From Halanaerobium salsuginis (GTDB taxonomy: Bacteria > Bacillota > Halanaerobiia > Halanaerobiales > Halanaerobiaceae): a stretch of DNA of 53,651 nucleotides. The notes beneath the pieces were generated by a model that did no database searches, was not told where the DNA came from, and was given only the letters and a program-made list of their open reading frames with translations. The stretch is from positions 1 through 53,651 of the forward strand of contig NZ_FOTI01000020.1 of assembly GCF_900114545.1 (NCBI RefSeq), given 5' to 3'. Both the position numbers and the translations under genes were made by a program. Position 1 is the first letter of the stretch; each line of letters opens with the position of its first letter. This document shows, one piece after another, positions 45,989 through 53,651 of the stretch.

Positions 45989-46025
45989 ATCTAATAACTA
46001 AATATGTCATAATAAGATAATTTTA
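45989..46025 (+). CRISPR. Decayed terminal CRISPR repeat
   Basis: Aligned with the repeat, 20 of the first 28 positions agree (for example TCTAAT-ACTAAAT), and the 3' third is lost. It lies 27 bases after the fifth repeat, so the intervening spacer has shrunk. It marks the ageing distal end of the array. Confidence 0.65.
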
Positions 46026-46031
46026 AATTGA

Positions 46032-46066
46032 TGCCATCCAAATCAGGATGGTATTTTCTTTTTTTA
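46032..46066 (+). terminator. Terminator after the CRISPR array
   Basis: TGCCATCC and GGATGGTA pair around AAATCA and are followed by TTTTC and a T-run. Confidence 0.85.
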
Positions 46067-46131
46067 TGGACATAATTACTTAAATGAGATAAACTTAAGC
46101 TAAGTTATTTTTAGCAAAGGGAGGTTCTAAT

Positions 46132-46878
46132 ATGGGATATACCTTGATTACAGGTGGTTCAAGTGGGATAGGTTTTGAATTGGCACGTACTTTTCTTAAA
46201 CATGATCACCGGGTTATTATTGTTGCATCACGTCAAGACAAGCTCACAGAAGCTCAAGAAAAACTACAGAACGAATTTGGTCGAGAAGTATTAATTTACC
46301 AACAAGATCTGGCAAAGTTAGGAGCAGCTGCAGAGCTTTACCGCCGCTTAAAGTCTGCTAATTTAAGTATTGAAATACTGATTAATAATGCTGGAATTGG
46401 TAAAATAGGTGCAACAGAGAAGATAGATTTTCAGGATGATGAAAAAATGATGATTTTAAATATAATTAATTTAGTTGAATTATGTAAATTATTTTTAGCG
46501 GAAATGTATCAAAATAAAAAAGGCAAGATTCTAAATGTTTCTTCAATGGGGGCCTTTCAACCTGGACCATATACTAGCACCTACTTTGCCAGTAAATCAT
46601 TTGTTTTAAGTTATAGTAAAGCAATCCACTATGAAGCTAAAAATAAAGGGGTTCAGATAAGTACACTCTGTCCAGGTACAACCAACACTAATTTTTTTAA
46701 CCGTGATGGTATGGAAACTCCTCCATTTTCTATGTCAGCAGAAAGAGTGGCTGAATATACATATAGTAAGTTTTTTCAAGGTAAGGAAGTTATTATTCCA
46801 GGTGTTTTAAATAAAGTAATTAGATTCTTACCAGAAAAATTAAAGAGTTTTTTTGTTGCCAGAATTAAAGACTATTAA
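46132..46878 (+). CDS. Short-chain dehydrogenase/reductase
   Basis: A 248-residue classical SDR. The dinucleotide site is ITGGSSGIGFELAR near residue 6, NNAGIGKIG near 83 keeps the fold, and the catalytic Ser and Tyr-x3-Lys are in NVSSMGAFQ and YFASKSF near 136-163. SDRs of this form (DltE/YdfG-like) reduce ketones or aldehydes; the substrate is not evident. AAGGGAGG precedes ATG 46132. It begins a new unit after the CRISPR terminator. Confidence 0.9.
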   Translation: MGYTLITGGSSGIGFELARTFLKHDHRVIIVASRQDKLTEAQEKLQNEFGREVLIYQQDLAKLGAAAELYRRLKSANLSIEILINNAGIGKIGATEKIDFQDDEKMMILNIINLVELCKLFLAEMYQNKKGKILNVSSMGAFQPGPYTSTYFASKSFVLSYSKAIHYEAKNKGVQISTLCPGTTNTNFFNRDGMETPPFSMSAERVAEYTYSKFFQGKEVIIPGVLNKVIRFLPEKLKSFFVARIKDY

Positions 46879-46974
46879 TTATTACTAAGTTTTTAGTTTA
46901 TTTTATTTTTTAAAATTTTAGAATGAGATTAAAATATAGGTGAACTTAAATATAATTGTAAAGGAGCTTTATTA

Positions 46975-47670
46975 ATGGAGAAAAAATTTGCTGCTGATCT
47001 TTATGTAGATCGGATAAGCTCAAAATTAGCAAAGCTAGCTGATCCAGAATCAGCTATTAAAATGAGTAATTATATGCAGAAAAAGTTTGATTTTTTCGGA
47101 ATTAAAGCTCAACCAAGAAGAAAAGCAGTTGGTGAATTTTTTGAAAAAGAACAGCGACCTGCTTATAATAATATAGAATTAGTAATAAAGAAAATGTGGT
47201 CTTTACCAGAACGGGAATACCAATATGTTGGGACTGAACTTCTCATAAAATATCAACAGCAGTATCAGCTGGATATTATTGATTTATTTGAATTTATGCT
47301 GCTTAATAAGTCATGGTGGGATACGGTTGATGTAATTGCTAAAAAATTGATCGGTTCTTATTTTAAAACATTTCCTGCTCAGATTAAACCATTTACTGAT
47401 CGTTGGTTGGCCAGTGATAATATTTGGTTACAAAGAACTTGCTTATTATTTCAATTAGCTTATAAAGAAAAAACAGATCAAGCTTTATTATTTAATTTAT
47501 GTTTTTCTTTACAAACAAGTCAAGAATTCTTTATCCAAAAAGGAATGGGTTGGGCATTGAGAGAGTATTCTAAAACTAATCCTTCTGCAGTGGAAAAGTT
47601 TATTAAAGTAATAAAATTACCAACTTTAACAATCAGGGAGTCTCTAAAAATAATTAAAAAGAGAAAATAA
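46975..47670 (+). CDS. DNA alkylation repair protein (AlkD-like)
   Basis: A 231-residue all-helical HEAT-like protein. IKMSNYMQKKFDFFGIKAQPRRK near the start, REYQYVGTELLIKY near 85 and KSWWDTVDVIAKKLIG near 118 match the AlkC/AlkD family, with the Trp-Trp-Asp of the DNA-binding groove. FIQKGMGWALREYSKTNP near 190 is another conserved block. It probably removes N3- and N7-alkylated purines. A good AAGGAG site precedes ATG 46975. Confidence 0.9.
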   Translation: MEKKFAADLYVDRISSKLAKLADPESAIKMSNYMQKKFDFFGIKAQPRRKAVGEFFEKEQRPAYNNIELVIKKMWSLPEREYQYVGTELLIKYQQQYQLDIIDLFEFMLLNKSWWDTVDVIAKKLIGSYFKTFPAQIKPFTDRWLASDNIWLQRTCLLFQLAYKEKTDQALLFNLCFSLQTSQEFFIQKGMGWALREYSKTNPSAVEKFIKVIKLPTLTIRESLKIIKKRK

Positions 47671-47697
47671 TATTAAAATAGTCAGGGTGATTAAAAA

Positions 47698-48546
47698 ATG
47701 GAAAAAGTATTATTAGCTGGTGCAACTGGCTATCTTGGCAGTTATATTTTAAAGGAGCTGCAGGAGAGTGATTATGCTGTTAAAGTAATTGTTCGCAGTC
47801 CAGAAAAATTGCCTGTTGATATTAAAAATATTGAAGTAATTGAAGCTGAATTAACTAAGCCAGCAACTATTAAAAATTGCTGTCATGATGTTGATTATGT
47901 TATTTCTACAGTTGGTATTACAAGACAAAAAGATGATTTTTTATATATGGATGTTGATTATCAGGCTAACAAAAATTTGCTGCTTGAAGCCAGGCGGAGT
48001 CAGGTAAAGAAATTTAGCTATATTTCTGTTTTTAAAGGGCAAGAATTAAAAAATTTAAAAATGTGTGCAGCTAAAGAGCGTTTTGTAGAAGAATTAAAAA
48101 ATTCTGGGCTTGATTATTGTATCATTAGGCCAACTGGATTTTTTTCTGATATGGCAGATTTTTTTAAAATGGCAAGTAAAGGGAGAATTTATTTATTTGG
48201 TGATGGTAAGTTTAAATCTAATCCAATTCATGGTCAAGATTTAGCACCACTTTGTGTGTTGTCTTTGCAGCAAAAAGAGCAGGAAATAATTATTGGTGGA
48301 CCTGATATATTGACTCAAAATGAAATTGCCCGGCTAGCCTATAATGCTCTGAATAAGGAAATTAAAATAACTCATTTGCCAGACTTTTTAAGAAAGTTTA
48401 GTTTGTTTTTAGTAAGAACATTTACTTCAGAAAAATTTTATGGTCCAGTTGAGTTTTTCTTGACTGTACTGGCAATGGATATGGTAGCTCCTAAAAGAGG
48501 AGAAAAACATCTTAAAGATTTTTATGATGAATTGGCACAGAAATAA
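47698..48546 (+). CDS. NmrA-like SDR-family NAD(P)-binding protein
   Basis: A 282-residue atypical SDR. LLAGATGYLGSYILKEL near residue 5 is the dinucleotide loop; VDYVISTVGITRQKDD and CIIRPTGFFSDMADFF are typical of the NmrA/YbjT group. The catalytic Tyr-Lys pair of classical SDRs is not evident. It may be a redox sensor or a chaperone-like subunit. It follows alkD by 27 bases and is the last ordinary chromosomal gene before the cassette array. Confidence 0.85.
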   Translation: MEKVLLAGATGYLGSYILKELQESDYAVKVIVRSPEKLPVDIKNIEVIEAELTKPATIKNCCHDVDYVISTVGITRQKDDFLYMDVDYQANKNLLLEARRSQVKKFSYISVFKGQELKNLKMCAAKERFVEELKNSGLDYCIIRPTGFFSDMADFFKMASKGRIYLFGDGKFKSNPIHGQDLAPLCVLSLQQKEQEIIIGGPDILTQNEIARLAYNALNKEIKITHLPDFLRKFSLFLVRTFTSEKFYGPVEFFLTVLAMDMVAPKRGEKHLKDFYDELAQK

Positions 48547-48777
48547 TGGTAGTTTAAATTGGAATATGGATATTTTTAAAAAAATAATTATTTATAAAAA
48601 CTTCTTATTAATCTGAATATAGGGAGTTTTTAATAATTATGCAAAGGATAATTATTACTTTTCTTGAATATTTATTATATTGTTTATTTTTATATTTATA
48701 TATGATGTTAATGAAATAAAGTTCGTTAAGATCTTTATTTTTAAGGGATTAATGAAAGTTAGTTCATGAATAAGTGA
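48547..48777 (+). other. AT-rich left flank of the cassette array
   Basis: This 231-base stretch has no gene on either strand. If the array has an attI and a cassette promoter they should lie here. I see TTGTTT (48680-48685) with TATGAT 15 bases on, a poor promoter, and no reverse-facing integrase gene. There is no AATCCC-AGTAAC block as seen before the other junctions, so it is not an attC. Confidence 0.5.
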
Positions 48778-48787
48778 GTTATGTGAA
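48778..48787 (+). other. Left array junction, attI-like core GTTATGT
   Basis: GTTATGTGAA matches the core type GTTRRRY used by integron integrases. Its reverse complement, TTCACATAAC, recurs exactly at 49772-49781 as the inverse core of the first attC. The crossover would fall between G48778 and T48779. Confidence 0.65.
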
Positions 48788-48811
48788 ATTGAAATAAAGG
48801 TGGTAAGAATA

Positions 48812-49744
48812 ATGAGTAAATTAGAAAAAAAATATAATAAATATTTCTCTGGTTTATATCAAATTAATAAGTTAAATAACAAAAAAGAGAAGATTTATCA
48901 TTATACAAATATAAATGCTATAAATAGTATTCTAGAAAATAAAAAATTATGGTTAACAAAGGCTGACTATATGAATGATAAACAAGAATACATTTATGCT
49001 ATAGAGAAAATCAAGAAATTATGTTATGAAAACTTTAGATTTAATGGTAAATGTATGAATAAAATATTCGATTATATAGTAAAACCAAATCAATTTGAAT
49101 ATGGTTCATTTATTATATCTTTTTCAAAAGATTATGATTCGTTACCTTTATGGTCTTATTATTCAAATATGGAAGGTTATAATATTGGATTTATTTCAAC
49201 TGATTTATTTTCGCTAACCAAAAAATCAGTTGAAGTTTTATTTAATCAAAATATTGGTAGATCAGATGCAAAAATAGGAAAAGATTTTAACATCATAATT
49301 GATGATGTCATTTATGATGAGGATATGCAGAATGAGATTATTATGGAGATAATTAATCGAATGGGTAATGTATATAATGATTATAAAAATAATAATATTA
49401 GCGAATACTATACTAATAAACTATTAATAAATTTAGCAAAAACTCTACAAAAGTTTACTATTTTTTTTAAACAAGAAACTTTTAAATCAGAAAAAGAAAG
49501 TAGAATGATTGTTACTTTTGAAGACCAAAGTATTATAAAGAAAGTAATAGAACATAGAATTTCAAATGGGGCTTTAATACCCTATATTGAAATTGATTTT
49601 AATGTAATTCCAATAAACTCATTGACTATTGGACCAAGAAATTCTATTGATATCGCTGAAAAAGGTTTAAGTTCTTTTTTGTATCATCAAGGTTATAAAG
49701 ATGAAATTGAAGTAAAAAAATCAAAGATACCTTTACGATATTAG
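48812..49744 (+). CDS. DUF2971 family protein (cassette A)
   Basis: A 310-residue protein of DUF2971 type. The N-terminal KIYHYTNINAINSILENKKLW, then LTKADYMNDKQEYIYA, and later FIISFSKDYDSLPLWSYYSN and GYNIGF are the recognisable blocks. Function is unknown. ATG 48812 is preferred because AAAGGTGGT at 48797-48805 precedes it; GTG 48800 lies within that site. Codon use is more AT-rich and Asn-rich than in the neighbouring core genes, in keeping with transfer. The gene fills the first cassette, only 33 bases after the junction. Confidence 0.8.
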   Translation: MSKLEKKYNKYFSGLYQINKLNNKKEKIYHYTNINAINSILENKKLWLTKADYMNDKQEYIYAIEKIKKLCYENFRFNGKCMNKIFDYIVKPNQFEYGSFIISFSKDYDSLPLWSYYSNMEGYNIGFISTDLFSLTKKSVEVLFNQNIGRSDAKIGKDFNIIIDDVIYDEDMQNEIIMEIINRMGNVYNDYKNNNISEYYTNKLLINLAKTLQKFTIFFKQETFKSEKESRMIVTFEDQSIIKKVIEHRISNGALIPYIEIDFNVIPINSLTIGPRNSIDIAEKGLSSFLYHQGYKDEIEVKKSKIPLRY

Positions 49745-49774
49745 TGAATTATTAAGTTAAAATATTTCAACTTC

Positions 49775-49957
49775 ACATAACAGAGCATTGGCGCTGACTA
49801 AGCTTGTAGCTAAGCTGTAAAACGGCCGTCGCCCCTCGGGACATGACTTTTGTCACATCTCTTGCAGCTGCTTAAGCTGAAAATGTTGAGGGAAGGCAAG
49901 AGATGCGCCAACCTAAAGACCAGGACAGCCACGTCGCAAATGCTCAGGACGTTATGT
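49775..49957 (+). repeat. attC-1 (183 bases), ends cassette A
   Basis: Inverse core ACATAAC 49775-49781 and core GTTATGT 49951-49957 are exact complements. Inside them, GAGCATT pairs with AATGCTC, and GGCGC with GCGCC. L' is separated from the core by AGGAC. The central part is longer than in the other sites and holds further stems (AGCTTGTAGCTAAGCTG region with CAGCTGCTTAAGCTG). R'' to L'' spacing is one base, L' to R' five. Confidence 0.8.
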
Positions 49958-49997
49958 GCAATATGCTGCAGTTTCCTAGTATTCTTGCTGGGGTATA

Positions 49998-50042
49998 AGT
50001 CAAAAAAGCAGGCACCTCCTTGGACCTCCTACTTTTTTGACT
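49998..50042 (+). other. Stem-loop at the start of cassette B
   Basis: AGTCAAAAAAG and CTTTTTTGACT form an 11-bp stem. The loop carries CCTCCTTGGACCTCC (50015-50029), a motif repeated with one change at 50993-51007. The loop's ACCTCC is complementary to the GGAGGT ribosome site of the methyltransferase gene (near 50111). The T6 in the right arm could also act in termination. Confidence 0.6.
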
Positions 50043-50121
50043 AAGGAAATATACTAATAAATAATCGATATAAATTTTACATGATATTTTTTAAATTAAT
50101 GTTTTTAGTGGAGGTTAGTAA

Positions 50122-50919
50122 ATGAGTAAAAATATAGATTTGCGGACTACTTTCAACAAAGTAACAACACTTTATGATTCAGTTAGACCACATTACCCTG
50201 AACAACTTTTTGATAATTTAATAGAAACTGCTCAGTTACAAAAAGATGCTAAACTTTTAGAGATTGGTCCTGGAACTGGCCAGGCAACCAAACCTTTCGT
50301 TAAACGAGGATTTAATATTACTGCAGTTGAACTAGGGAATGATCTTGCAGACTTTGTTCGAAAAAAGTTTGCAGATAACAATAATTTCAAGGTTATTACA
50401 GGAGCTTTTGAAAATATTGATCTAAAAGATAAATCTTTTGATTTAATCTATTCTGCAACTGCTTTTCACTGGATAAAATCAGAGATTAAATTTAGTAAAC
50501 CATATGAGATATTAAAAAAGGGTGGTCATTTAGCAATTATTCATACTAATCATGTTTCAAAAGAGAAAGAAGATAAATTTTTTTATGCTTGTCAGCCTAT
50601 TTATAAAAAATATAAACCCGGTGGAAAATATAATGACAAATTAAAACCAATATTAGAAAAAGAACTTAAACCAAAAGAATATGATAATAATTTTTTTGAA
50701 CAAGTACTTTTTGAAACATATCCTGTTGATATCAGTTATTCTGCTGATGAGTATATTAAGTTATTAAATACATATTCACCAACACTATCAATGGAAACAG
50801 AGCAACGAAATAAGTTTTTAAATGAGATTAAAGAACTAATAAATAATAAATTTGATGGAAATATAGAAAAGAATTTTGCAATGAGCTTAACTATTTTAAG
50901 AAAAAAAGATAGTCAATGA
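50122..50919 (+). CDS. Class I SAM-dependent methyltransferase (cassette B)
   Basis: A 265-residue methyltransferase. Motif I is KLLEIGPGTGQATKPF near 45-60, the acidic end of strand 2 is ITAVELGNDLADFV, and ITGAFENIDLKDKSFDLIYSATAFHW near 94-119 gives motifs II-III and the post-motif. KPYEILKKGGHLAII follows. The substrate is unknown; the form is like small-molecule methyltransferases of the UbiE/Trans-aconitate type. TGGAGG precedes ATG 50122. It is the only gene of its cassette. Confidence 0.88.
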   Translation: MSKNIDLRTTFNKVTTLYDSVRPHYPEQLFDNLIETAQLQKDAKLLEIGPGTGQATKPFVKRGFNITAVELGNDLADFVRKKFADNNNFKVITGAFENIDLKDKSFDLIYSATAFHWIKSEIKFSKPYEILKKGGHLAIIHTNHVSKEKEDKFFYACQPIYKKYKPGGKYNDKLKPILEKELKPKEYDNNFFEQVLFETYPVDISYSADEYIKLLNTYSPTLSMETEQRNKFLNEIKELINNKFDGNIEKNFAMSLTILRKKDSQ

Positions 50920-50975
50920 AGTTGTTAAAGCATTAATCAAATATAAAAAGATAAGAGTAGTAAATATGCTTAACC

Positions 50976-51019
50976 GCAGGACAGATTGGGTCCCTCCTCG
51001 GACCTCCCAATCTGCCTGC
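50976..51019 (+). other. Strong stem-loop at the end of cassette B
   Basis: GCAGG-A-CAGATTGGG pairs with CCCAATCTG-CCTGC (14 pairs, one bulged A). The loop holds CCTCCTCGGACCTCC, the second copy of the motif seen at the cassette start. No T-run follows. It lies 15 bases before attC-2. Confidence 0.65.
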
Positions 51020-51034
51020 TAGGCAGCATACAGC

Positions 51035-51166
51035 ACATAACATGGGATTGGCGTCATGCCTTCTGTCATAAAGCTTGCAGGTTAACTAATTACGGATACG
51101 AAAAAGCAAGCTTTACGCCAGTTCCTGCGGAATCAGGCACGAGCGCAAATCCCAGTAACGTTATCC
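51035..51166 (+). repeat. attC-2 (132 bases), ends cassette B
   Basis: Inverse core ACATAAC 51035-51041, then AT and GGGATT-G-GCG; on the other side CGC-A-AATCCC, then AGTAAC and core GTTATCC 51160-51166. Inner stems include AAAGCTTGC with GCAAGCTTT. The inverse core with its upstream flank (GCAGCATACAGCACATAAC) is complementary, bar two positions, to the cassette start at 49951. Confidence 0.85.
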
Positions 51167-51198
51167 GAAATAACTATAACCAAGAGAGGAGTTAAAAA

Positions 51199-52755
51199 GT
51201 GTATATTAAAGAAATAGCTATATCAGGTTATAAAACTTTAGTAGATTTTAAATTTGAAGAGATACAAGAAGGTTTAAATATATTAGTTGGAAAAAATAAT
51301 GTAGGAAAAAGTAATATTTTAAAGGCTCTTGAAATTTTTTTTACTCGTCAAGGTACTTTAAGAAAAGATGAGATTGCAAATTCTTTTGATTCATTTTTAA
51401 ATAATAGAGATAACATTTATATGGAAATTGTTTTTGCTAATGCTTCCAATATGTTTAATAATAATGAAAATGAGGTAAGTTTAAAAATTGATTTGAATGA
51501 AAATAATAGAAAATATATGTTAAAAAAACAAGGCAAATATATAAATATGTCTAAAAATAGCTTTTTTAAAAATAATCCAAAATATATTTATTTTGGTGAT
51601 TTAAATGAAATTAATTTTAATTCAGATGATTTGCAGCAACTATATTCTATAAATAATTCAAATGAAAGAAGAAAAATTGAAACTAATGCTTCTCAGTTTT
51701 TACAATTTATTTTAAATACAAACATTAATATTTCAATTAATATAAAAAATGATAATACCTATAGCATTGATGTAATTGATAGTTACGGAAATAGTAATTT
51801 ATTATCGAATAAAAGTTCTGGTTTACAACAATTAGTTTACTTAGGATTAGTTTTTTCTTTTAATTTATTGAAAAAACCAGAAAATATTATTTTAGGTATT
51901 GAAGAACCTGAATCTAATTTACATACTTCATTACAAAAAAGACTTTTTAAAAGAATAAGGGAGATTTCTGAAGCATATTCTATACAAATTTTTTTAACAA
52001 CACATTCTCCAATTTTTATTGATAAATTTAATCATAAATCTGTCCATCATGTTAAAAGAAATAATAAAATGCATACAAAAGTATTAAAAGAAAGTTATAG
52101 AAATAATTGGTTTGACATAAGAAAGGACTTAGGTTTAGGTGTTAACGATTCGCTATTTGTAGGAGAATTTAATTTACTTGTTGAAGGACCTACTGAAAAA
52201 ATTATATTCCCAAAAATAATAAAAATATTACATGATAAAGATTTAATTAGTTTTAGTGAAGAAGATATTAATTTGTTAAGTGCTCAGGGAGCTTCTAACT
52301 TACATTATTTTTCTAAATTAATATCTCAAATGGAATTACCAACTATTGTTTTAGTAGACAAAGATCAAGAAGGAAATAATGCAAAAGATAAAATTGAAGA
52401 AGATAATTTTTTTAACAAGTTAAGGGTTATCTCGTTAGATAAAGAAGAATATGAAGAATGTGAAATTGAAGATTTAATTAGTGATGATATATTATTAAAA
52501 AGTATAAATGAGTTATATAATAGCTCATTAAATAATGAAGATCTATTAAAAGCTCGAAAAAATGAACATCATGAAGAGGCAGGTTTAATAAAGTTTTCAA
52601 AGGCATTTAAGAAACTTGATCTAGAAAAAGATAGAGATTTATCTAAATTAAACCTTGCAACAAAAATAAAAAGCAATTTAGATGAAGAATCTGATTTAAA
52701 ATTAATTCAACAATTTTTTATAGAAATGGATAGTTTTTATAAAGAGTTTATGTAA
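51199..52755 (+). CDS. OLD-family ATPase/TOPRIM nuclease (cassette C)
   Basis: A 518-residue protein. The N-terminal ABC-type ATPase has Walker A GKNNVGKSN near 31, a signature-like SSGLQQLVYLGL near 209, Walker B ILGIEEPESNLHTS near 233 and the switch His in LTTHSPIFID near 266. The C-terminal TOPRIM domain has LLVEGPTEKIIFPKI near 325, LSAQGASNLHYF near 355 and IVLVDKDQEGN near 386. OLD nucleases act in phage exclusion and DNA repair. The start is GTG 51199 with GAGAGGAG upstream. No partner gene such as gajB is in the cassette, so it is most like a stand-alone class 1 OLD. Confidence 0.88.
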   Translation: MYIKEIAISGYKTLVDFKFEEIQEGLNILVGKNNVGKSNILKALEIFFTRQGTLRKDEIANSFDSFLNNRDNIYMEIVFANASNMFNNNENEVSLKIDLNENNRKYMLKKQGKYINMSKNSFFKNNPKYIYFGDLNEINFNSDDLQQLYSINNSNERRKIETNASQFLQFILNTNINISINIKNDNTYSIDVIDSYGNSNLLSNKSSGLQQLVYLGLVFSFNLLKKPENIILGIEEPESNLHTSLQKRLFKRIREISEAYSIQIFLTTHSPIFIDKFNHKSVHHVKRNNKMHTKVLKESYRNNWFDIRKDLGLGVNDSLFVGEFNLLVEGPTEKIIFPKIIKILHDKDLISFSEEDINLLSAQGASNLHYFSKLISQMELPTIVLVDKDQEGNNAKDKIEEDNFFNKLRVISLDKEEYEECEIEDLISDDILLKSINELYNSSLNNEDLLKARKNEHHEEAGLIKFSKAFKKLDLEKDRDLSKLNLATKIKSNLDEESDLKLIQQFFIEMDSFYKEFM

Positions 52756-52767
52756 TATAGTTACTTC

Positions 52768-52900
52768 GGATAACATGGGATTAGCGTCATGCCTTCTGTC
52801 ATAAAGCTTGCAGGCTAACCAATCACGGATATGAAAACGCAAGCTTTACGCCAGTTCCTAGCGGAACCAGGCACGAGCGCAAATCCCAGTAACGTTATAC
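52768..52900 (+). repeat. attC-3 (133 bases), ends cassette C
   Basis: Nearly identical to attC-2 internally (ATGGGATT, GCGTCATGCC, AAAGCTTGC/GCAAGCTTT, AATCCCAGTAAC), but with inverse core GGATAAC, which fits its own cassette start GTTATCC at 51160, and core GTTATAC 52894-52900. The flank before R'' (TATAGTTACTTCGGATAAC) is complementary to the cassette start over 19 bases with one mismatch. Confidence 0.87.
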
Positions 52901-53322
52901 GAAATAATAACTGAACATCGGCAAATAAGAGAAAAAGATAAAAGAAGGGTTGGATCATCGCTTACTGCTATGAACTAGCTCCTCCAAATGAAGAAAATAA
53001 TCACTGCAGATTTCAAGTGGTTTTAACAATAGACTTGGACAATTATAATTTACAAAATTATTTACATATATCAAAGAATAAATTAGTCACTGATTGATCT
53101 TCACGCACTTCGTGAAGATTTAATATAGTGCAGAATATACGAAGTACTAGCTGGTTAAGAGTTAATATCATTGTTCAGTAAGTTGAAGAAAGATAAAATA
53201 TTTTACGCAGCCAGTTATTACAGCGCATAACATGGGATTGAAGATTTCGCTTCGCTCCATCCAAATTCGTTCGGTAAGGGCGGTCGCCCTAGACCTCACG
53301 AACTTCTTAAATCCCAGTAACG
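52895..53322 (+). other. Cassette D, no evident gene, possible ncRNA or promoter cassette
   Basis: A 428-base cassette with no convincing reading frame. Homologous along its length to cassette E. Conserved parts: AACATC near the start; TTAACA (53023-53028) with TATAAT (53044-53049) 15 bases on, promoter-like; a hairpin ATCTTCACG/CGTGAAGAT at 53097-53119; and AGCTGGTTAAGA with TTCAGTAAGTTGAAG near the end. It may express a structured RNA or supply a promoter to later cassettes. Confidence 0.6.
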
Positions 53323-53328
53323 TTATAC
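53225..53328 (+). repeat. attC-4 (104 bases), ends cassette D
   Basis: Inverse core GCATAAC 53225-53231, then ATGGGATT; on the other side AATCCCAGTAAC and core GTTATAC 53322-53328. The central part differs fully from attC-2 and -3 and is shorter, with its own stems (for example GGGCGGTCGCCC). The outer parts are conserved, as in true attC families. Confidence 0.83.
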
Positions 53329-53651
53329 GCAATAATAACTAAACATCAGCTAAAAAGATAAAAGATAAGGTTTGAGCATCGCTAACTATAATTCATTAAC
53401 TTTCTCCATTAAAGAACTAATAATTAATATTTTTTATAAGGTGTTAACAATAAACTTGGGGGATTATAATTCAAAAAGTTTTTTACATATAGCAAAAAGT
53501 AAATTGGTCACTGTTAGATCTTCACGAACTTCGTGAAGACTCAATATAGTAAATGGTTAATGAATTTTTTTAGCTGGTTAAGAATTGATATCAGAATTCA
53601 GTAAGTTGAAGTTAAGTACAAATTTTAACGAGGCAAGTTATTACAGCGTAT
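53323..53651 (+). other. Cassette E, no evident gene, partial, homologous to D
   Basis: Aligns with cassette D: start TTATACGCAATAATAACT, AACATCAGC, TTAACA (53444-53449) and TATAAT (53465-53470) with the same 15-base gap, hairpin TCTTCACG/CGTGAAGA (53519-53539), AGCTGGTTAAGA and TTCAGTAAGTTGAAG. Single-base differences and small gaps are scattered. The sequence ends inside its attC. Confidence 0.6.
53630..53651 (+). repeat. Start of attC-5 (cut by window edge)
   Basis: AAGTTATTACAGCGTAT at the last bases is complementary to the start of cassette E (GTTATACGCAATAATAACT at 53322), with two mismatches if the next bases complete ATAAC. The array therefore continues. Confidence 0.7.

Follow-up and report, generated by a model that had tools for sequence, protein, structure and literature searches.

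The left junction of the cassette array at the right end of the window (the whole stretch of 53,651 nucleotides analysed here, which is the entire contig C55 of a draft genome of 100 contigs) is, judged by its sequence, a real attI standing alone on the chromosome with no integrase beside it. Very probably, this intact-looking attI is an additional insertion site belonging to a chromosomal integron that has its sole integrase gene elsewhere, on contig C75. The enzyme encoded there would work on the window attI in trans, the folded attC of an excised cassette would be recombined with it at G|TT, and new cassettes entering at this point would let a satellite array grow. The basis of this reading in the sequence is the identity of the attI, the presence of two sister copies, a single integrase of this type, hairpin attCs, matching cassette ends and a recent cassette transfer. 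From these features, we infer that the integrase would act on the window attI in trans, that it would bind both palindromes of the element and that the attC bottom strand would be the recombination substrate.

The left border of the array

The array is composed of five cassettes, the last of which (E) is cut by the contig end. Its left border, GTTATGTGAA (48778-48787), is found 231 bases past the stop of a gene (47698-48546) whose NAD(P)-binding product belongs to the Pfam family NAD_binding_10/NmrA-like. An earlier note on this DNA had read this decamer as the outer border of cassette A, lying 231 bases after an 'ordinary SDR gene' with neither the AATCCC-AGTAAC block of an attC nor an adjacent integrase, and this description was borne out. 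Positions 48778-48796 are 95% complementary over 19 nt to positions 49763-49781 at the opposite end of cassette A, the distance to the gene was confirmed and the gene label is right in substance. The flank upstream of the border, TTCATGAATAAGTGA, is devoid of the AATCCC-AG..AC block; AATCCC-AG..AC-GTTA is present at the borders that follow cassettes B, C and D. An integron-integrase profile gave no match on the window contig. Finally, cassettes or an attC to the left of 48778, which the earlier note would have counted as contrary evidence in a sister genome, were sought in the window genome and not found: in a pairing search of 46000-53651, all four plus-strand attCs were those within the array.

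The 10-mer GTTATGTGAA alone is not significant, with 4 sites at no more than one mismatch against 5.0 expected. The flank was recognized as a true attI because positions 48698-48782 match, without gaps, the C75 segment located between intI and the first cassette (75 of 85 bases, 88%, E 3e-27). This C75 counterpart runs from the final base of the intI stop codon to the crossover. In addition, a profile trained on other species only found the window attI at E 5e-5 and the C75 attI at E 2e-5. In the window, the crossover would be expected between G 48778 and T 48779, so that by sequence the attI heads the array with a predicted G|TT crossover. The coordinates of the element and of the cassettes are collected in Table 1.

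Table 1. Features of the solitary attI and of the cassette array in the window
Feature	Position	Strand	Basis
Upstream extension (61 nt) common to the window attI and the C97 solitary attI	48637..48697	+	absent from C75, where intI coding sequence lies
Solitary attI	48698..48782	+	88% to C75 attI, 93% to C97 copy; 29/29 invariant columns
First imperfect palindrome of attI, TTAATGAA-6-TTCGTTAA, possible integrase binding site	48708..48729	+	read from sequence; conserved in attI alignment
Second imperfect palindrome of attI, TTAATGAA-6-TTCATGAA	48749..48770	+	read from sequence; conserved in attI alignment
Cassette A: DUF2971-domain gene and attC	48779..49951	+	complementary ends; Pfam PF11185
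attC of cassette A, bottom strand folds	49774..49957	-	single-strand DNA fold, z -3.6
Cassette B: methyltransferase gene and attC	49952..51160	+	sequence reading, Pfam
attC of cassette B	51035..51166	-	fold z -6.0
Cassette C: OLD-like ATPase/TOPRIM gene and attC	51161..52894	+	no mismatch to G005 cassette
attC of cassette C	52768..52900	-	fold z -6.7
Cassette D: no ORF of at least 60 aa	52895..53322	+	sequence/ORF reading
attC of cassette D	53225..53328	-	fold z -4.5
Cassette E: no ORF of at least 60 aa, cut by contig end	53323..53651	+	identical to first cassette after C75 attI as far as C75 reaches

Integron integrases are able to act at secondary sites, and the earlier note had considered that the array might sit at such a site. 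In that case, the integrase would once have put a cassette at a fortuitous GTT core behind the SDR gene. This has next to no probability, since the left side is no minimal core: the whole 85-nt attI is present with both palindromes, and the 61-nt extension is shared with C97 besides. It has also little likelihood that the 85-nt element is no recombination site and mainly serves cassette expression, as a promoter or regulator site copied before arrays. The solitary copies do share an A+T-rich upstream extension, and a palindrome resembling the first half of attI occurs in some cassettes without ORF. Against this, conservation extends up to the crossover GTTA and ends there, at the very point where the cassettes abut the element, and a scan of 48400-48950 for a promoter Pc reading into the array was not above shuffles. 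In the same way, a terminator scan at the window site did not exceed shuffles, and no Rfam match was obtained in 48400-53651 at E 0.5.

The bottom strands of the four complete attCs of the window fold at z -3.6 to -6.7, their R and L arms being paired and the spacer asymmetric. In a set of 124 family cassettes, matches of a cassette start to its own end numbered 745 pairs, against a mean of 494 and a largest value of 534 in 500 shuffles. Cassettes behave as mobile units, since cassette C is found without a single mismatch over 1,734 nt in another species, G005 (L143:566-2324 region), the edges of the match falling at attC borders. The integrase of that species is only 64% identical to that of the window genome. 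By this measure, cassette C is a very recent transfer between species. Cassette E is the cassette adjoining the C75 attI, identical over about 310 bases (as far as C75 extends). In this draft genome, where the contig end truncates the array, exchange between the loci is visible only through such shared cassettes. Cassettes could also enter at attC sites instead of the window attI. ORF-less cassettes like 52895-53322 and 53323-53651 form one family that recurs across numerous species and in several cases occupies the first position behind attI; they carry the palindrome TCTTCACGNACTTCGTGAAGA, which resembles the first half of attI, and could carry a promoter.

One integrase and three attI copies

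The search for intI proposed in the earlier note yielded one integrase of this type in the window genome (G000), on C75, and three copies of attI were found: the C75 copy lies beside the integrase, those of C55 (the window) and C97 are alone. The integrase gene (L039:389-1474; 361 residues) is transcribed towards its own attI and array, with other chromosomal genes behind it. In the related loci with a readable attI in other genomes, the integrase is also found on the attI side and transcribed towards attI. These observations bear on another proposal of the earlier note, that intI lies at the far end of the array; the window would then be a complete integron viewed from its distal side. The contig does end within the array; the genome's only integrase of this type, however, adjoins its own attI on C75 and points at it, and together with the arrangement of the related loci this leaves that proposal very little likelihood.

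The resemblance between the two solitary copies goes beyond the attI, as the 146-nt unit 48637-48782 is 94% identical to C97:4083-4227. The upstream extension is only weakly alike in G008, a related genome. A possible movement of the solitary unit as a cassette, with TTATGCAAAGG as its left edge, finds no support in the base just before this edge. The C97 attI (L042:4083-4167) is located after an AlkA/Ogt gene and an acetyltransferase gene. Its crossover G is replaced by A (ATTAT), and having lost this base it may be locked.

According to the earlier note, attI might have survived with intI lost or moved. The first part of this proposal holds, as a true attI is present with no intI beside it. 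Loss or displacement is not what the data point to: a tblastn search of 46000-48800 gave nothing convincing as an intI remnant left of the window site, and the integrase adjoins its own attI at C75. The surroundings of the integrase are partly shared throughout the genus, with a ClpB-like gene upstream in G000, G006 and G008 and other upstream neighbours common to some of G001, G003, G004, G005, G006, G009 and G010. The window attI is thus regarded as an extra copy, since no intI remnant is seen leftward and the integrase stands beside its own attI at a locus with partly shared neighbours genus-wide.

A comparison of the same locus in the available sister genomes, none of which had both this locus and the array, gave no clean empty site, because the homologue of the flanking gene 47698-48546 occurs in only one other genome of the family, close to a different, decayed array. 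In G007, the integrase is reduced to a 3' stub (L122:1785-1979) beside an intact-looking attI and a short array, and a homologue of this same flanking gene is found about 4 kb away.

Solitary attIs in related genomes

When the 146-nt window attI was used in a DNA search of 60 relatives, no match was found in the rest of the genus and two weak ones elsewhere. The attI diverges fast, so that a DNA search finds almost nothing and a profile is needed. In G008, a closed chromosome of 2,309,262 bp that is probably Halanaerobium praevalens, a solitary attI stands at the head of a second array, at a distance of about 350 kb from the integrase (E 1e-13; neither G008 nor the window genome entered the profile). 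In G001, a solitary attI and the intI gene are on different contigs (E 3e-13, model without G001), and in G004, a sister of the G001 species, the solitary attI is decayed. The integrase gene of G008 is itself split in two by about 1.2 kb of insertion-sequence-like DNA (L114, G008:C1:1188391-1190730), and its arrays may now be static.

HD-domain, AlkA/Ogt-type and deformylase-like genes lie upstream of the solitary attIs in G001 and G004 (names given by eye except where Pfam was run). The G008 copy follows the same HD-domain gene, plus an EamA-like gene. These shared neighbours suggest, but do not prove, that the solitary sites of G001, G004, G008 and C97 represent a single, old second site. 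The one in the window is separate from it.

The phenomenon is more pronounced in f8 and f11, two other families of the class, which were searched with a model made from the integrase-side attIs of six f11 genomes. Six solitary attIs were found in G058 and nine in G057, with one integrase gene apiece. attC sites follow in most of the solitary attIs examined in these families. In G053 and G057, the solitary and the integrase-side attI carry the same first cassette, as far as read. Five of the solitary attIs of G058 stand in a row on one strand, 2-9 kb apart (L283 and L284, G058:C9:355700-373579), as an array interrupted by repeated attIs.

To what extent the solitary copies are conserved was assessed on 29 invariant columns, defined on ten attIs adjoining an integrase or the 3' stub of one. 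All 29 are kept in the window and in the G008 solitary attI, 27 in C97, 26 in G001 and 20 in the decayed G004 copy, in an alignment that took in the solitary copies and thereby favours them slightly. Outside the invariant columns, the G008 copy is identical to the C75 attI at only 16 of 38 positions (Fisher p 8e-8); for the window attI alone, the test is modest (p 0.006). From these figures, the solitary attI looks constrained. Given how similar the three attI copies of G000 are, their conservation could also be due to a recent duplication with no further use.

These data also allow weighing whether the window site is a relic, left by a complete second integron that lost its integrase by deletion and of which attI and array stay on without use, as a CALIN with a fossil attI. 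There is no intI at the window locus now, decayed solitary attIs exist (the G004 copy and the C97 copy without crossover G) and the G007 integrase illustrates decay to a stub beside attI. Set against this, tblastn revealed nothing convincing as an intI remnant left of the C97 and G008 solitary sites either, and the neighbours of the intI locus are shared across most of the genus. Moreover, solitary attIs exceed integrases many-fold in G057 and G058, the G008 copy is strongly constrained and cassette C is identical to one in another species. A relic is accordingly considered unlikely. The preferred reading, an extra site used in trans, has points against it as well, namely the lost crossover G of C97, the decayed copy of G004 and an integrase lacking the I2 insert that is held necessary for attC recognition in classical integrons.

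The integrase and its relation to known systems

Homologues of the integrase were found in 28 of the 59 genomes of the class. It scores 194.6 bits with TIGR02249, below the cut-off of 265, and its best curated family is NF040815 XerA_Arch (227.9 bits, cut-off 220). Its best match among solved structures is the XerC-like recombinase 4a8e, and an extra N-terminal part has weak HARP similarity. The I2 insert is absent, as residues 180-238 of IntI4 (59 residues) face 17 model positions. Likewise, the distance from the catalytic Arg to HxLRH is 94, whereas among eleven IntI relatives ten have 131 and the remaining one has 136. The enzyme is thus no IntI with an I2 domain. In a quick tree, the eleven IntI relatives form one clade (SH-aLRT 100), and the integrases of the class together with two Bacillota relatives form a separate one (99). 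The integrase may represent either an older state or a separate origin, and this tree, with its weak deep branches, favours neither. I2 is described as a helix that docks the extrahelical bases of attC, and its acquisition is seen as the step to single-strand recombination, without direct proof since deletion of I2 kills IntI1 (PMC7790495).

Among wider relatives of the integrase (L151-L230), no attC array of at least three attCs was detected beside the gene by the pairing search, many of these contigs ending near the gene. One relative without I2, from a Candidatus Undinarchaeales MAG (L152:6001-6999), branches beside the I2-bearing IntI clade with a support of 91. It might be a relative from before the gain of I2, and only 31 bases of its contig follow the match. 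Bacteroidota relatives (L154-L179), some of which align from about residue 12, are in several cases (e.g. L156, L159) followed by palindromes and GTTGT-type motifs. They may belong to another unrecognised cassette system.

The system shares with sedentary chromosomal integrons its hairpin attC cassettes, G|TTR crossover, attI at the array head and tyrosine recombinase, as well as cassettes mostly in one direction and cassettes devoid of ORF. It differs from them in an integrase that lacks I2 and falls outside the IntI clade, and in several solitary attIs per genome. Transcription of the integrase towards attI, and thus in cassette direction, is also known from Treponema-type inverted integrons (PMC3607928), and it is seen at C75 and in the related loci of other genomes. 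The one Treponema relative compared (L213), however, has I2 and groups with IntI, and no report of solitary attI sites was found among the open-access papers searched. The window alone, with four complete attCs and no integrase on the contig, would score as a CALIN (at least two attCs and no nearby integrase). Unlike a CALIN, it has a recognisable attI at the head of its array, and elsewhere in the genome there is an integrase with a matching attI. Finally, the integrase resembles archaeal XerA and XerC/D recombinases in its best curated family and best structure match, but is distinguished from them by its link to cassette arrays, its extra N-terminal part and its position beside a two-palindrome attI.

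Function and layout are integron-like, and two traits by which integrons are commonly defined, an IntI bearing I2 and an attI-adjacent integrase, are lacking at the window locus, the latter being present on C75. The best reading would be a variant of the integron in which one Xer-like integrase uses several attI docking sites in trans. In the open-access papers searched, neither solitary attIs nor an integrase of this type were found to be reported. A survey reported one complete integron in Firmicutes, plus a few CALINs (PMC9024848), and its reliance on canonical IntI may explain why a single complete one was found.

Integrons are usually described with one integrase and one attI. Here, attI is multiplied and apart from the integrase, so that a single enzyme could load cassettes at several loci, and the present data suggest that one enzyme does load gene cassettes at several docking sites. 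We lean towards the broader view of a distributed integron: in the class of the window genome, probably Halanaerobiia, one Xer-like integrase without I2 would serve many dispersed solitary attIs, arrays would grow at several places of the chromosome, and folded attC recombination would work, or be handled differently, without I2. A natural integron-like system lacking I2 makes the role of this insert in single-strand attC recombination testable.
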